Shown: one piece after another, positions 10,788-21,201 of the stretch
Layout: every line of letters begins with the position of its first letter
Numbering within the stretch: the stretch's first letter is position 1
Assembly: GCA_030695565.1 (NCBI GenBank)
Contig: JAUYRZ010000080.1
Span: 1 to 45,469 of the forward strand
Source: Archangium sp.
GTDB taxonomy: Bacteria > Myxococcota > Myxococcia > Myxococcales > Myxococcaceae
Reading direction: 5' to 3'
Length of the DNA stretch: 45,469 nucleotides
Position numbers and translations under genes: made by a program
Notes under the pieces: model-generated
What the model was told of the DNA's origin: nothing
The model's input: only the letters and a program-made list of their open reading frames with translations
Databases searched by the model: none

Positions 10788-11570
10788 ATGACCGAGACGA
10801 CGACCGAGGTCCGTTACGAAGTCGAGGGCGGCATTGCCCGGCTCACCATCGATCGGGAGGCCGCGCGCAACGCGCTCTCGCCGGGCGTGGTGCAGGGGCT
10901 GATGGCGGGGCTCAAGCGCGCTGAAGACGACCCCCGCGTTCGCTGCATCGTGGTGACCGGCGCCGGTGATCGCGTGTTCTGCGCCGGTGGTGACCTGGGG
11001 GGCATGGCCGACGGCTTTCTCGACGGGCACGAAGGCCGCCGCGCGTATGGCGCGTTGTTGATGGCCTTTCAGCAGGCGAAGAAGCCCACCGTGGCGCGCA
11101 TCAACGGCCACGCGTTGGCGGGCGGGCTGGGCCTGGTGCTCGCCTGCGATCTGGCCGTGACCATCGACACAGCGGGCTTCGGCACGCCGGAGATCGATCG
11201 CGGCCTCTTCCCCATGATGGTGCTCGCGTTTCTCCAGCGGCACGTGGGGCGCAAACGCGCGCTCGAGCTGTTGCTCACCGGCGATCGGCTCACCGCCGCC
11301 AAAGCCCTGGAGTGGGGCCTGGTGAACCAGGTGGTTCCCCCTGCCGAGCTCGACACCGCGACGAACGCGCTGGCGGCGAAGCTGGGGGGCAAGAGCCTCG
11401 CCATTCTCGCGTTGGGGCGGCGCAGCTTCTTCACTGCCGAAGATCTCCCCCTGCAGCAGTCGGTGGAGTTCCTCTCAGCGCAGCTCTCACTCAACGTGCT
11501 CGCGGAAGACGCGGCCGAAGGCGTTACGGCTTTCCTGGAGAAGCGGCCGGCGAAGTGGGGCGATCGCTGA
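10788..11570 (+). CDS. Enoyl-CoA hydratase/isomerase (crotonase) family protein
   Basis: 260 residues, the standard length. The CoA-binding loop RVFCAGGDLGGM and second oxyanion-hole segment INGHALAGGLGLVLACDL are clear, as are FGTPEIDRGLFP and the C-terminal TGDRLTAAKALEWGLVNQVV. By-eye alignment to rat mitochondrial enoyl-CoA hydratase keeps the glutamate in PEI (equivalent to Glu164). The Glu144 position, however, is glycine, so simple hydratase activity is doubtful; an isomerase or other crotonase reaction is possible. It is not a convincing MenB. Cytoplasmic. It follows the TetR gene by 9 bp. Its last 47 bp overlap the 3' end of the opposing M23 peptidase gene. Confidence 0.85.
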   Translation: MTETTTEVRYEVEGGIARLTIDREAARNALSPGVVQGLMAGLKRAEDDPRVRCIVVTGAGDRVFCAGGDLGGMADGFLDGHEGRRAYGALLMAFQQAKKPTVARINGHALAGGLGLVLACDLAVTIDTAGFGTPEIDRGLFPMMVLAFLQRHVGRKRALELLLTGDRLTAAKALEWGLVNQVVPPAELDTATNALAAKLGGKSLAILALGRRSFFTAEDLPLQQSVEFLSAQLSLNVLAEDAAEGVTAFLEKRPAKWGDR

Positions 11571-12387
11571 ACTCGAGGCGCAGCAGGCTCTCGGGATCGA
11601 TCCACCGGCCGTCGAGCTTCACCCCGAAGTGCAGGTGCGGCCCGGTGACCCGCCCGCTCTGGCCCACCTTGCCCAGCGGCTGACCCCGCACGACCCGCTC
11701 CCCCTGCTTCACGGAGAAGGCCGACATGTGGAAGTACGAGGTGAACAGCCGGCCCCCGTGGTGGAGGATCACCGTGCCGCCCGAGCCGAAACAATCGCGC
11801 ACCAGCACCACCTCGCCGTCATTGGCCGCGGTGATGGGGTCGCCGGTCTCGCCGTTGATGTCGGTGCCGAAGTGTTGGCTCTTCTTCTTGCCGTTGAAGA
11901 GGCGCAGATCGCCGAACGGCGCGCCCACGCCATCGAGGCGGGGCCAGGCGAAGCGGGCCTCGAAGATCCACGGCTCGAAGTCGCGATCGAAGGTCTCGTC
12001 GAACGCCTTTTGATCCTCCGCCGAACGGAGACGGTCTTTCTTCGAGATGCTGGTGAAGCGTTTGCTCACCGTCAGCTGGCGTCTGCGGAAGTCGGGCTTT
12101 CGCACCTCGAGTTCACCATCCACGCGCTGCTTGCCGGCGGTGCTTTCACCGGTCACCTCCAGGCCCATCACGCCCGGTTTGTGATCGACCGACAGGCCCG
12201 TCAACGAAACCCAGCGGTCGCCATACGGCAAAAAAACGAGCTCCGCCGAGCCGAGCTGGCCCGACGGAGCTTCGGTTGCGCCCGTGACTTCCACGAGCAC
12301 GGCGTCACCGGGCCGCGCCACACCGGGTTGGATGCGGACCTCGAGGCCCGCGACCACCACCAGCGTGAGCAGCGCCCCCACGATCAC
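11524..12387 (-). CDS. M23-family metalloendopeptidase (LytM-like)
   Basis: 287 residues from GTG at 12387. A hydrophobic N-terminus (VGALLTLVVVAGL) suggests export, followed by an Ig-like beta segment (about 16-95). The C-terminal M23 domain (about 160-265) has the zinc motif H172-x3-D176 (HFGTD) and HLHFG with His251 and His253, plus Gly-rich turns. Such enzymes cut peptidoglycan cross-bridges; with all zinc residues present, this one is predicted to be active. The start is uncertain. The codons just upstream encode RRRS, a good signal-peptide n-region, but contain no ATG, GTG or TTG and run into a diverged repeat copy (12398-12463). The 3' end overlaps the crotonase gene by 47 bp, tail to tail. 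Confidence 0.82.
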   Translation of the reverse strand: MIVGALLTLVVVAGLEVRIQPGVARPGDAVLVEVTGATEAPSGQLGSAELVFLPYGDRWVSLTGLSVDHKPGVMGLEVTGESTAGKQRVDGELEVRKPDFRRRQLTVSKRFTSISKKDRLRSAEDQKAFDETFDRDFEPWIFEARFAWPRLDGVGAPFGDLRLFNGKKKSQHFGTDINGETGDPITAANDGEVVLVRDCFGSGGTVILHHGGRLFTSYFHMSAFSVKQGERVVRGQPLGKVGQSGRVTGPHLHFGVKLDGRWIDPESLLRLEFSDRPTSPAASPGKP

Positions 12388-12397
12388 GGAGCGACGC

Positions 12398-12463
12398 CGG
12401 TAGCAAGGGAACGCTGCGCGAGACAGACCGCAGCGAAGCGGAGAGCTGGCCGAGGCGGCGCGA
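12398..12463. repeat. Diverged copy of the 85-bp repeat family
   Basis: In plus-strand order this stretch carries CCGG, GGGAACGCTG, GCGAG, CGAAGCGGA and GCCGAGGCGG, spaced much as in the intact units at 20597-20766. It lies in the 82-bp gap between the M23 gene and the upstream lipoprotein gene. Identity is partial, so the relationship should be checked by alignment. Confidence 0.5.
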
Positions 12464-12469
12464 GCAAGG

Positions 12470-14092
12470 TCACGGCACGATGTTGATGGTGCCGTTGACG
12501 TCAGCGCCGACCGGCGAGCCCCAGGCCGTCTGGTAGCTGTCGGAGCTGCTCTGATCCTTCGCGAAGACCACCCGCATGCCGGTGCTGGCCTGGATGAAGT
12601 TGGTCGCGGGGAAGGTGGTGATCGTGATCGCCCAGCGGCTGCTGTAGCCCGACGCCTTGCAGGTGAAGCTGCCCATGGTCGGATCGGTGGCCGTCAGCTG
12701 CTCATTGTTGGTGATGACGAAGCCGGTGTTGGCCGGGCCGTTGAACTCGCCGTTGCCCGTCATGCCGCCGGTCACGCCGTCACCGTTCAAGTCGGTGTTG
12801 ACGACCGCGCGCGCGACGGGGCCACCCTGCGAGATGATGGGCGTGTCGAACAGCACGTTGAGCGTGTCGTTGGGCTGCAGCGAGCCGGTCATCGTGTTGC
12901 CCATCGCCTTGCGAACCTGGAAGGCGGCGGTGGTGCTGAGCGGGCGGGGCGCGGTGGCGTCGATGGCGAAGAAGTAGCCCACGAAGTCGGTGGTGACGCC
13001 GGTGTCGAGACCGGTCGCGCGCACGATGATGTTGTAGCGGTTGCCCAGGGTCCACGCGGCGGTGGGGGCGATGGAGAGCACGTTGGGCGCCCGCTGCGTC
13101 ACGGAGACCGCCACGTTGGTCTGGCAATCCTCCTGCACCACCTTGACCAGGCGGGTGGTGTCGACCTGGGTGATGGGCTGGTTGAAGACGAGGGTGATGG
13201 GATCGTTGGCCTTCACCGCGTTGCGGTACGGGGGCGAGAGCGCGGCGGCGAACGAGTCGAGGTTGGTGGCCACGATGGCCAACGGCCCGGCCGTGAGGCG
13301 CGCGTCGCCCAGGATGATGGTGCGATCGGGGTTCTGAAAGAGGCCCTGCGCCGAGTAGGTGCTGAGGGTGCCCAGCGCGTCGGTGCGGCCGTCGTTGTCT
13401 TCATCGAGCGCGCCGATGGTGAGCGCGTAGGTGACGTTCGAGCTCAGGGCGCTGATGCGCGCGAGCTCGGCGAGGTCGGGCGTACCGGTGAAGGTGAGCA
13501 GGCCGTTCTCGTCGACGTCGGCCGCGGCGCTGAACGTGCCCACGCCGTTGCCGTACTGGCCGTTGAACGACTGGAACGCGGTGGGCGAGACCTCGAGGTA
13601 CGCCTTGGCGCCCTTCGCCGGGCGGCCCTGCGCGGTGTAGATGCGGAACTTCAAGGTGCCGTTGAGCTGCGAGAGCGTCAAGACGCCCGCGTTGCCGTTG
13701 CCGTTGTTGATGGGAAAGTTGCCGCTGTTGCCGGGCACGTTGCTGTTGAGGCGCGCGGTCGAGTAGCCGGTCTTGCTGAAGACGAGCTGGGCAGCCGAGC
13801 CGCCGGGAACGTCCTTGAACGTGTAGGCGCCGTCGGCGTTGGTGGTCGCCTTGTAGCTGCGGCTGGCGTCAGCGCCATTACCGAGCACCATCACGACCTG
13901 CACCCCGTCGATACCGGTGGAGTTCGCGGTGACCACGATGCCCGAAACCGTACCGACCGGAGTGGACGGCGCGATCTGTGAGACCGAGTCGGGCTCGCGA
14001 ACACCGTCGACGACGCCGTCGTTGTTCAGATCTTCTTTCGGGGCGCACGCGCACAGCGCGATGGCCACACTGGCCGTCAGAATTCGGTACAT
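12470..14092 (-). CDS. Lipoprotein with carboxypeptidase-regulatory-like and Big_5-like domains
   Basis: 540 residues. The signal MYRILTASVAIALCAC has a lipobox (LCAC, Cys16). The start is supported by an AGGAG site 10 bp upstream. A short DLNNDGVVDG loop (about 21-30) resembles a calcium-binding repeat. Residues about 46-115 match a carboxypeptidase-regulatory-like fold (GTVSGIVVTANSTGIDGVQVVM, TNADGAYTFKDVPGG). Residues about 280-385 resemble a Big_5/SbsA Ig-like domain (KANDPITLVFNQPITQVDTTRLVKV, WTLGNRYNIIVRATGLDT). The rest is beta-rich. Predicted to be an outer membrane or surface adhesive or scaffold protein; no catalytic motif is seen. Divergent from the lipoprotein at 14192, and upstream of the M23 gene on the same strand. 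Confidence 0.75.
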   Translation of the reverse strand: MYRILTASVAIALCACAPKEDLNNDGVVDGVREPDSVSQIAPSTPVGTVSGIVVTANSTGIDGVQVVMVLGNGADASRSYKATTNADGAYTFKDVPGGSAAQLVFSKTGYSTARLNSNVPGNSGNFPINNGNGNAGVLTLSQLNGTLKFRIYTAQGRPAKGAKAYLEVSPTAFQSFNGQYGNGVGTFSAAADVDENGLLTFTGTPDLAELARISALSSNVTYALTIGALDEDNDGRTDALGTLSTYSAQGLFQNPDRTIILGDARLTAGPLAIVATNLDSFAAALSPPYRNAVKANDPITLVFNQPITQVDTTRLVKVVQEDCQTNVAVSVTQRAPNVLSIAPTAAWTLGNRYNIIVRATGLDTGVTTDFVGYFFAIDATAPRPLSTTAAFQVRKAMGNTMTGSLQPNDTLNVLFDTPIISQGGPVARAVVNTDLNGDGVTGGMTGNGEFNGPANTGFVITNNEQLTATDPTMGSFTCKASGYSSRWAITITTFPATNFIQASTGMRVVFAKDQSSSDSYQTAWGSPVGADVNGTINIVP

Positions 14093-14191: not shown

Positions 14192-15061
14192 GTGAGATTG
14201 ACCCCCAGGTTGGCCCTGTTCGTCGGCGTCGTGGTGGTTCTCTCGTGGGTCTCCTGCGGCGGCACCAGTGTCGACGGCGCGGTGGGGCCGACCGGTGGCG
14301 ACGTGTGTCTGCCCGACAACAAGGTCTGCATCAGCGTGCCCATCGGAGGGCTGGAGACGCAGGAGATCTTGCGCATCGCTCCGGGCGCCGACGTGCCAGG
14401 TGGCGCGCTCAGCGACGGCTACGACATCAGCGGCGTCGGCAGCGCGCCCATCGTGTTCGTCAAGCCGGCCACCGTCTCGTTCTCGCTCGAGCTGGTGCGT
14501 GCAGGCACCCTGGAGAACGAGAACCTGCTGCGCATCTACACCCGCGAGCGCCTCGAGAGCGGTGAGCTGGGTGAGTGGCAGCCGCTGGAGAACGCCTTCG
14601 TCGATCGCGTGCGCAACGTGGTGCGGGGCGACACGCGGCACCTTTCGCCGTTCGCGGTGCTCCGTTCGGATCGCCTGGTGGATGGTGGCGATCCGTTTGA
14701 GATCGACGGAGGCAGTCGCGACGGCTCGGTGATCGTGGTGCCTCCGTTCGACGGCGGCCGGCCTGACGCGGGCAGGCCCGACGCGGGGCGTGATGCAGGT
14801 GTTCCCGACTCGGGCACGCCGGACGCAGGTCGAGATGCCGGCCCGCCCGACTCGGGTACGCCCGATGCGGGCACTCCCGACGCGGGCTTCGACGCTGGCG
14901 TGGATGCGGGCTTCGATGCGGGCGTGGACGCTGGGGTGGACGCCGGGCTCGACGCTGGCGTGGACGCGGGAGTCGACGCAGGCATCGATGCCGGAGCGGA
15001 TGCAGGGAGCGACGCCGGTTCTGTTGATGCAGGTGAAGATGCGGGCGTCGACGCCGGGTGA
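14192..15061 (+). CDS. Lipoprotein with ZU5-like segment and Asp-Ala-Gly spacer tail
   Basis: 289 residues from GTG at 14192, chosen because MRLTPRLALFVGVVVVLSWVSC is a lipoprotein signal. The lipobox WVSC has Trp at -3, which is unusual. Residues about 30-150 are a compact beta domain resembling ZU5-type modules (GPTGGDVCLPDNKVCISVP, VFVKPATVSFSLELV, RHLSPFAVL), with one pair of cysteines. From about residue 191 to the end the protein is built of PDAG/DSGTPDAG and then DAGVDAG/DAGFDAG repeats, a flexible acidic spacer common in myxobacterial surface proteins. The repeats sit at the C-terminus with no domain after them, so the tail may simply extend outward. Function unknown. Confidence 0.72.
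   Translation: MRLTPRLALFVGVVVVLSWVSCGGTSVDGAVGPTGGDVCLPDNKVCISVPIGGLETQEILRIAPGADVPGGALSDGYDISGVGSAPIVFVKPATVSFSLELVRAGTLENENLLRIYTRERLESGELGEWQPLENAFVDRVRNVVRGDTRHLSPFAVLRSDRLVDGGDPFEIDGGSRDGSVIVVPPFDGGRPDAGRPDAGRDAGVPDSGTPDAGRDAGPPDSGTPDAGTPDAGFDAGVDAGFDAGVDAGVDAGLDAGVDAGVDAGIDAGADAGSDAGSVDAGEDAGVDAG
14762..15058 (+). repeat. DAG-coding tandem repeat tract
   Basis: About 297 bp of imperfect 9-18 bp repeats (GAC GCG GGC / GAT GCA GGT variants) encode Asp-Ala-Gly units in the lipoprotein at 14192. Synonymous codons vary, so the protein repeat appears to be maintained by selection and not by recent slippage alone. Confidence 0.8.
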
Positions 15062-15082
15062 TTTTGATTCGGCCCTTTTCCT

Positions 15083-15126
15083 GGTCACTCCGCCTCGGCG
15101 CATCTTCCGCTTCGCTTCAGCTGCGG
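15083..15126 (-). repeat. Inverted partial copy of the 85-bp repeat family
   Basis: The reverse complement of this 44-bp stretch matches the junction region of the 85-bp units (GCAGCTGAAGCGAAGCGG, then AAGATGCGCCGAGGCGGAG) with a single visible mismatch. It lies between the convergent ends of the DAG lipoprotein gene and the sigma54-activator gene. Confidence 0.75.
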
Positions 15127-20582: not shown

Positions 20583-20596
20583 TTGCGGGCCGGAGC

Positions 20597-20795
20597 AGAT
20601 GCGCCGAGGCGGAGCGACCCAAAAACCGGAGCAGAGCCGGTCCAGCGGAACGCTGGGCGAGCGCAGCTGAAGCGAAGCGGAAGATGCGCCGAGGCGGAGC
20701 GACCCAAAAACCGGAGCAGAGCCGGTCCAGCGGAACGCTGGGCGAGCGCAGCTGAAGCGAAGCGGAAGATGCGCCGAGGCGGAGCGACCCAAAAA
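20597..20795 (+). repeat. 85-bp tandem repeat, two exact units plus 29 bp of a third
   Basis: Units start at 20597, 20682 and 20767. The first two appear identical over all 85 bp, and the third stops matching after GACCCAAAAA. Each unit contains a perfect hairpin CCAGCG-GAA-CGCTGG and further GC-rich self-complementary blocks. The array fills the gap between the terminator and the 3' end of the zinc-ribbon gene, in a 340-bp stretch (20511-20850) without a gene. Related partial copies lie at 15083 and 12398. Confidence 0.9.
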
Positions 20796-20850: not shown

Positions 20851-21201
20851 CTACTTGTCGTCGTCGTCTTCTTCCTCGTCTTCGTCATCATCATCGTCGT
20901 CGTCATCATCATCATCGTCGTCGAGGTCGTCATCTTCCTCGTCGTCGTCCTCATCGTCTTCGATCACCGCAGCGGGCAGATCAGCCGTCTCGATCTCGAG
21001 CGCGACCGAGAACTTCTTGGCGATCGCCGCGACCTGGGTGGTGAGCTCGCCCAACGCCGCGCTGAACTCTTCGTTCGCGGTCTTGGTGAGCTTGTTGTCG
21101 CAGTGAGGGCACGCGAGCTTCTCGGTGGCGTCGATGAGATCTGCGGCGTCGAGGTCGAAGATGCCTTCGCACTTCTGACAGGTGAAATCGATGGTGGCCA
21201 T
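20851..21201 (-). CDS. Small zinc-ribbon protein with poly-acidic tail
   Basis: 116 residues. The N-terminus has two CxxC knuckles (Cys8/Cys11 and Cys31/Cys34), a zinc ribbon with MJ0042-like spacing. A helical, Ala-rich middle (about 40-80) leads to a C-terminal tail from about residue 80 made almost wholly of Asp and Glu, ending in Lys. The tail is encoded by mixed GAC/GAT codons, visible on the plus strand as a TCG/TCA-rich tract. Such proteins could bind nucleic-acid machinery or basic partners; the acidic tail may mimic DNA or act as a chaperone-like segment. The function is unknown. Divergent from the acyl-CoA synthetase gene across 67 bp containing a palindrome. Confidence 0.8.
   Translation of the reverse strand: MATIDFTCQKCEGIFDLDAADLIDATEKLACPHCDNKLTKTANEEFSAALGELTTQVAAIAKKFSVALEIETADLPAAVIEDDEDDDEEDDDLDDDDDDDDDDDDDEDEEEDDDDK

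Follow-up and report, generated by a model that had tools for sequence, protein, structure and literature searches.

The window analysed here, a whole contig of 45,469 nucleotides from the Archangium sp. genome G000 (8.5 Mb, 134 contigs, 100% complete), carries related short repeats at gene borders and raises the question of what kind of element they are and how one of them comes to lie between two co-directional genes. An earlier note had described two identical 85-bp units and a partial third at 20597–20795. The two identical units were found again in a sequence check and, with the register set by dispersed single copies (which start with CCGGAGC.. and end with ..GACCCAAAAA), occupy positions 20626–20710 and 20711–20795 on the plus strand, which here is the purine-rich strand. 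The third unit is not a 3′ partial copy: it precedes the two full units and has an internal deletion (20590–20625, plus strand), CCGGAGCAGA being fused to TGCGCCGAGGCGGAGCGACCCAAAAA with the middle of the unit missing. The complete array (20590–20795) is flanked by two separate terminator-like hairpins, from two convergent genes. The inverted copy reported at 15083–15126 is present as a truncated unit containing the 3′ half (15082–15126, minus strand), between an ORF with a D/A/G repeat and a sigma-54 activator gene. The copy at 12398–12463 is also present, but instead of being a diverged copy it represents a second subfamily and has a true extent of 12384–12473, including flanking GTGA tetranucleotides. 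The subfamily of the window array, which is intergenic and includes the truncated copy, is referred to as S1 and that of the copy at 12398–12463 as S2. The gene-border location noted for the window copies holds for most copies of the family.

A search of G000 with the window array returned at least 41 places (best E value 7e-100, far above chance), with at least 48 and 45 in the congeneric genomes G003 (JAUXRX, Archangium sp.) and G004 (VFKJ, Myxococcales), both of which are metagenome-assembled. With an S2 query, G000 yielded at least 52 places, G003 at least 75 and G004 at least 52, a few of them S1 copies that were also matched; all copy numbers are lower bounds, since 40 candidates were scored in each genome. 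Good matches in a search of 99 genomes were limited to these three, i.e. three of the six congeneric genomes, with G001, G002 and G005 as the non-carriers. Weak S1 matches in the family members G027, G044 and G015 were judged to be chance; they align to mutually similar open coding stretches. The repeats form a dispersed, structured and apparently mobile family, as had been proposed, with identical tandem units beside decayed ones and with S2 copies at gene junctions where relatives have no element. No match was found in Rfam 15 at the gathering threshold, and a literature search of open-licence papers returned no description of the repeat family or of relay-preserving repeats. Several G003 contigs start or stop within element arrays (L091, L092, L094 and L095), so that the true array lengths probably exceed the assembled ones.

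The set of copies comprises 237 distinct sequences, 176 of them full length, which were split by the motif GTCTCGCGCAGCG into 75 S1 and 101 S2. The two subfamilies differ in setting and in length. CCCTCTCCC-type hairpin sequence flanks 22 of 84 S1-class arrays on both sides and nine on one side, and was found on both sides of none of the S2 arrays; about a third of the S1 copies are nested in the loops of CCCTCTCCC..GGGAGAGGG hairpins. This hairpin family is itself abundant, with more than 550 pattern matches per genome in G000, G003 and G004. S2 is seldom seen in open intergenic DNA. The S2 core is 79 nt long in 96 of 101 copies, whereas only 49 of 75 S1 copies, which are about equally diverged, have the modal length of S1 (P = 4e-7); S1 lengths vary freely and are not tied to frame.

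An alignment of 40 diverse copies gives a three-way junction that contains a closing helix, a hairpin with a GAA triloop and a second, longer hairpin tipped by GCGAAGC, and this covarying fold is common to S1 and S2. The hairpin CCAGCG-GAA-CGCTGG, pointed out previously, is therefore one of three conserved helices and not the whole structure. Within the junction 92% of cells are paired and 16 of the 21 pairs show two-sided changes. The two-sided changes total 121, compared with 39 ± 5 in shuffled data (0 of 500 shuffles reached the observed value) and 5–17 when the partners are slid. Pairs of the closing helix switch between G-C and A-T with intermediates almost absent. Folded alone, the window array is no better than its shuffles (z = −0.93); folding of a single array is uninformative here, and the structural evidence is the covariation across copies. 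With DNA parameters, folding of the purine-rich strand is more favourable than that of the complementary strand (−17.5 versus −12.3 kcal/mol), and G-U mismatches (9) and A-C mismatches (12) are in balance. These results fit, but do not prove, a constraint that acts on the purine strand as folded single-stranded DNA and not on the mRNA. The earlier note had also allowed for ordinary transcription terminators, which would suit G+C-rich hairpins in intergenic DNA. We regard this as scarcely credible: the T-run is absent, the S1 array of the window already lies between two separate terminator-like hairpins, and S2 lies inside operons, between translationally coupled genes, where termination would silence the next gene.

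The position of S2 is precise. On the strand that codes for the neighbouring genes, S2 has the form NTGA-TC-[79-nt core]-C-NTGA, i.e. NTGA-82 nt-NTGA. In one orientation, it separates two co-directional genes precisely where the stop codon of one meets the start codon of the other: the upstream gene terminates at the first TGA, the downstream gene begins at the second NTG, and a four-nucleotide overlap of a stop codon with the next start codon is seen in the sequence at both ends. The window copy, on the minus strand, illustrates the arrangement, which the earlier note had overlooked together with the in-phase mini-frame. Its 79-nt core (12389–12467) is preceded by a GTGA (12470–12473) in which the TGA stop of the upstream gene overlaps the GTG start of a mini-frame, and is followed by a GTGA (12384–12387) in which the TGA stop of the mini-frame overlaps the GTG start of the downstream gene. 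The upstream gene (12470–14092, 540 amino acids) encodes a protein with a carboxypeptidase-regulatory-like domain and the downstream gene (11524–12387, 287 amino acids) an M23 peptidase. Between them, the relay reading frame (12384–12473, GTG to TGA, 29 codons) has the predicted translation VTLLAPPRPALRFAAVCLAQRSLATGVAP*.

Across the family, 63 of 101 S2 copies have ATGA or GTGA as their right tetramer, and neither is among the common right tetramers of the 75 S1 copies. An A follows the downstream start codon in 65 of 68 cases. In 20 of 29 cases an A stands directly before the upstream TGA, compared with 7.7% A at nearby third positions (P = 2.5e-16); ORFs were defined by open frame alone, and the long chance ORFs of a G+C-rich genome blur the 'upstream gene' calls. 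Where the right N is G, the left N is also G (three of three, Fisher P = 0.007).

Junctions with and without the element were compared for four gene pairs, which we take, from the protein sequences, to be purM-purN, cobA-cysD, a VWA-type pair (L132) and a cytochrome-c-like/engB pair (L184). At purM-purN, a plain ATGA overlap is found in G005 and G001 and two S2 units in G000. At cobA-cysD, the relatives G007, G008 and G059 have a plain ATGA overlap and G000 has one S2 unit. The VWA-type pair has a plain GTGA or ATGA in relatives, and two units in G000 with GTGA at each boundary. The cytochrome-c-like/engB pair shows a plain NTGA in G004, G005, G002, G009 and G006, one unit in G000 and a three-unit array in G003. 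As all four pairs have a plain NTGA overlap when the element is absent, insertion rather than loss is the simplest reading. In the same four of four pairs NTGA stands on both sides of S2 against a single NTGA in relatives, which amounts to a target-site duplication. When flanks were compared blindly for target duplications in general, the signal was weak (the longest match averaged 2.52, versus 1.60 when shuffled), and no clear duplication was seen for S1. The purM-purN junctions of G004, G003, G010 and G002 (L242, L244, L246 and L248) carry four different, unrelated inserts, in which an ATGA..ATGA relay frame spans 33, 20, 28 and 20 codons, respectively, a pattern that would suit a hot spot with selection for coupling.

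The strongly conserved structure of S2 and its fixed orientation and position could also be those of a conserved, non-mobile regulatory element of operons, such as an attenuator or an RNA-processing site. We consider this unlikely, as the gene pairs are functionally unrelated, the same pairs are empty in relatives, the strand opposite to the mRNA folds better, and the balance between G-U and A-C mismatches does not point to selection acting on the mRNA.

With 86 bp from NTGA to NTGA, the first start codon and the second stop codon share a reading frame, which is about 29 codons long. In a simulation in which every stop must overlap the next start, the relay is complete in 52 of 84 S2 arrays; about a quarter of the S2 arrays lack a complete relay and were counted against the relay reading. 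Many of these frame counts are non-independent, since the copies have a common ancestry, and canonical single copies simply inherit one length, so that the informative cases are the non-canonical arrays and the tandem junctions. Among non-canonical arrays, 29 of 41 keep the relay, compared with 3 and 6 after in silico deletion of one or two nucleotides. Tandem junctions with NTGA have a spacing of 86 bp in ten of ten cases, and those without NTGA have a spacing of 87 bp, with in-frame read-through, in eight of ten. Shifts of the left flank are multiples of three or are compensated by one base elsewhere (L121, L130, L131, L185, L189 and L233). Coding selection on the mini-peptide was not found, and the third codon positions vary least: the frame matters and the amino acids of the mini-peptide do not. 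None of the S1 arrays contains a true relay.

These observations are best explained by one family of mobile repeats of about 80 nt, the purine-rich strand of which folds into the three-way junction. S2 inserts where the stop codon of one gene and the start codon of the next, co-directional gene share four bases (ATGA or GTGA), with the tetranucleotide kept on both sides. With 82 + 4 = 86 bp and a stop-free frame, one coupled junction would become two, in the layout upstream gene, NTGA, mini-frame of about 29 codons, NTGA, downstream gene. Ribosomes would finish the upstream gene, restart on the mini-frame, traverse the repeat, stop at the second NTGA and restart on the downstream gene. S1, having its fold in common with S2, inserts into intergenic DNA and hairpin loops. 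Overlaps of the ATGA/GTGA type are the commonest arrangement (Huber et al., PMC6728339), and termination-reinitiation coupling weakens over an intergenic distance of ∼20–40 nt, with loss beyond ∼20–38 nt (Huber et al., PMC10666635). An 80-nt insertion should uncouple a gene pair, a loss that an in-phase mini-frame would avoid. We hold with good confidence that the repeats are a mobile family in which S2 inserts at stop/start overlaps and maintains gene coupling by an in-phase relay. The sequence comparisons show the family, its fold, its insertion sites, the tetranucleotide on both sides against empty sites in relatives, and the frame rule. Beyond these, the S2 relay is presumably translated, an enzyme presumably moves the element in trans, and selection for coupled translation probably determines which insertions survive.

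A more specific reading goes further and takes S2 to be a transposable element specialized for stop-start overlaps, which targets NTGA, has evolved an 82-nt relay body and spreads within operons without uncoupling them, its tandem copies being held in phase by junctions of 86 bp, with stop and restart, or of 87 bp, with read-through; on this we are evenly divided. The strong rival is survival bias, to which we give slightly less than even weight. Here, the repeat would insert anywhere with a 4-bp duplication, tight operons would tolerate insertions at stop-start overlaps alone, and the frame would reflect selection or the luck of an 86-bp length. The unrelated purM-purN inserts of G002, G003, G004 and G010, which are also in phase between two ATGA tetranucleotides, suggest that the host selects for relays generally at that junction. 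However, S1 copies, although folded alike, occupy intergenic DNA and hairpin loops and include no true relay, and S2 is rare in open intergenic DNA. Survival alone predicts an equal spread of S1 and S2, and the difference between them points to a target preference of S2 as well.

A repeat of the REP/BIME type, with a RAYT (Y1 tyrosine) transposase as the partner proposed in the earlier note, was also considered and appears very unlikely. Like REP, BIME and REPIN sequences, the repeat is short, structured, extragenic, of high copy number and clustered in tandem, and its purine strand begins with GGAG, resembling the tetranucleotide of some REPs. A search for Y1_Tnp, positive in five control genomes, nevertheless found none in G000, G001, G002, G004 or G005, two of which (G000 and G004) carry the element, and the sole Y1_Tnp of G003 has no element copy nearby and adjoins a different repeat. 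The fold behind the GGAG is a three-way junction of three helices and not a single REP hairpin, an imperfect palindrome preceded by a GTAG- or GGAG-type tetranucleotide. IS200/IS605-type insertion is not known to leave the target tetranucleotide on both sides, as is seen for S2 at NTGA. The different repeat, GAAAAGCAGCCTGTCCCC, lies downstream of the only G003 Y1_Tnp gene (L267, 884–901), also occurs as the palindromic purM-purN insert of G004 (L242, 1761–1834) and looks like a separate REP/RAYT family.

The family resembles bacterial MITEs (RUP, BOX, ERIC and Correia) in being small, non-autonomous and dispersed, with a probable target duplication, and differs from them in the strict site and phase of S2; the search, which covered Y1_Tnp transposases, turned up no parent insertion sequence. 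A target duplication is seen at S2 junctions only. Terminal inverted repeats were not seen, the ends TCTGGGTCGC.. and ..GGCTCCGCTCC not being mutually inverted in the 176 copies read directly, so that the element is not a classical MITE. Rickettsia palindromic elements are short repeats that carry a conserved reading frame into coding space, which stays open (PMC10969869). S2 is likewise a short repeat with a frame kept open, but those elements are fused in frame within one gene, whereas S2 lies between two ORFs and alters neither protein, its frame beginning on one stop codon and ending on the next start codon. Termination-reinitiation at ATGA/GTGA overlaps (PMC6728339, PMC10666635) is the coupling process apparently retained at S2 junctions. 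In the known cases the genes overlap directly, whereas here the mobile repeat would add an intermediate mini-frame.

If correct, this would be a route by which mobile DNA can inhabit tightly packed operons: landing on the four shared bases, duplicating them and bringing a frame of the right phase. It would also supply dozens of natural experiments on translational coupling, in which the same gene pairs occur with and without a relay of one to four units, and would allow tests in vivo of how strong termination-reinitiation is and over what distance it can act, both of which have long been debated. Fold, target and phase can each be altered easily in a laboratory reporter.

In the window, the ORF beside the truncated S1 copy ends in a long imperfect D-A-G-x repeat (14890–15060; GATGCGGGC..), and the gene for a small zinc-ribbon-like protein directly beside the S1 array ends in a very long run of GAC, GAT and GAG (aspartate/glutamate) codons (20851–20960).
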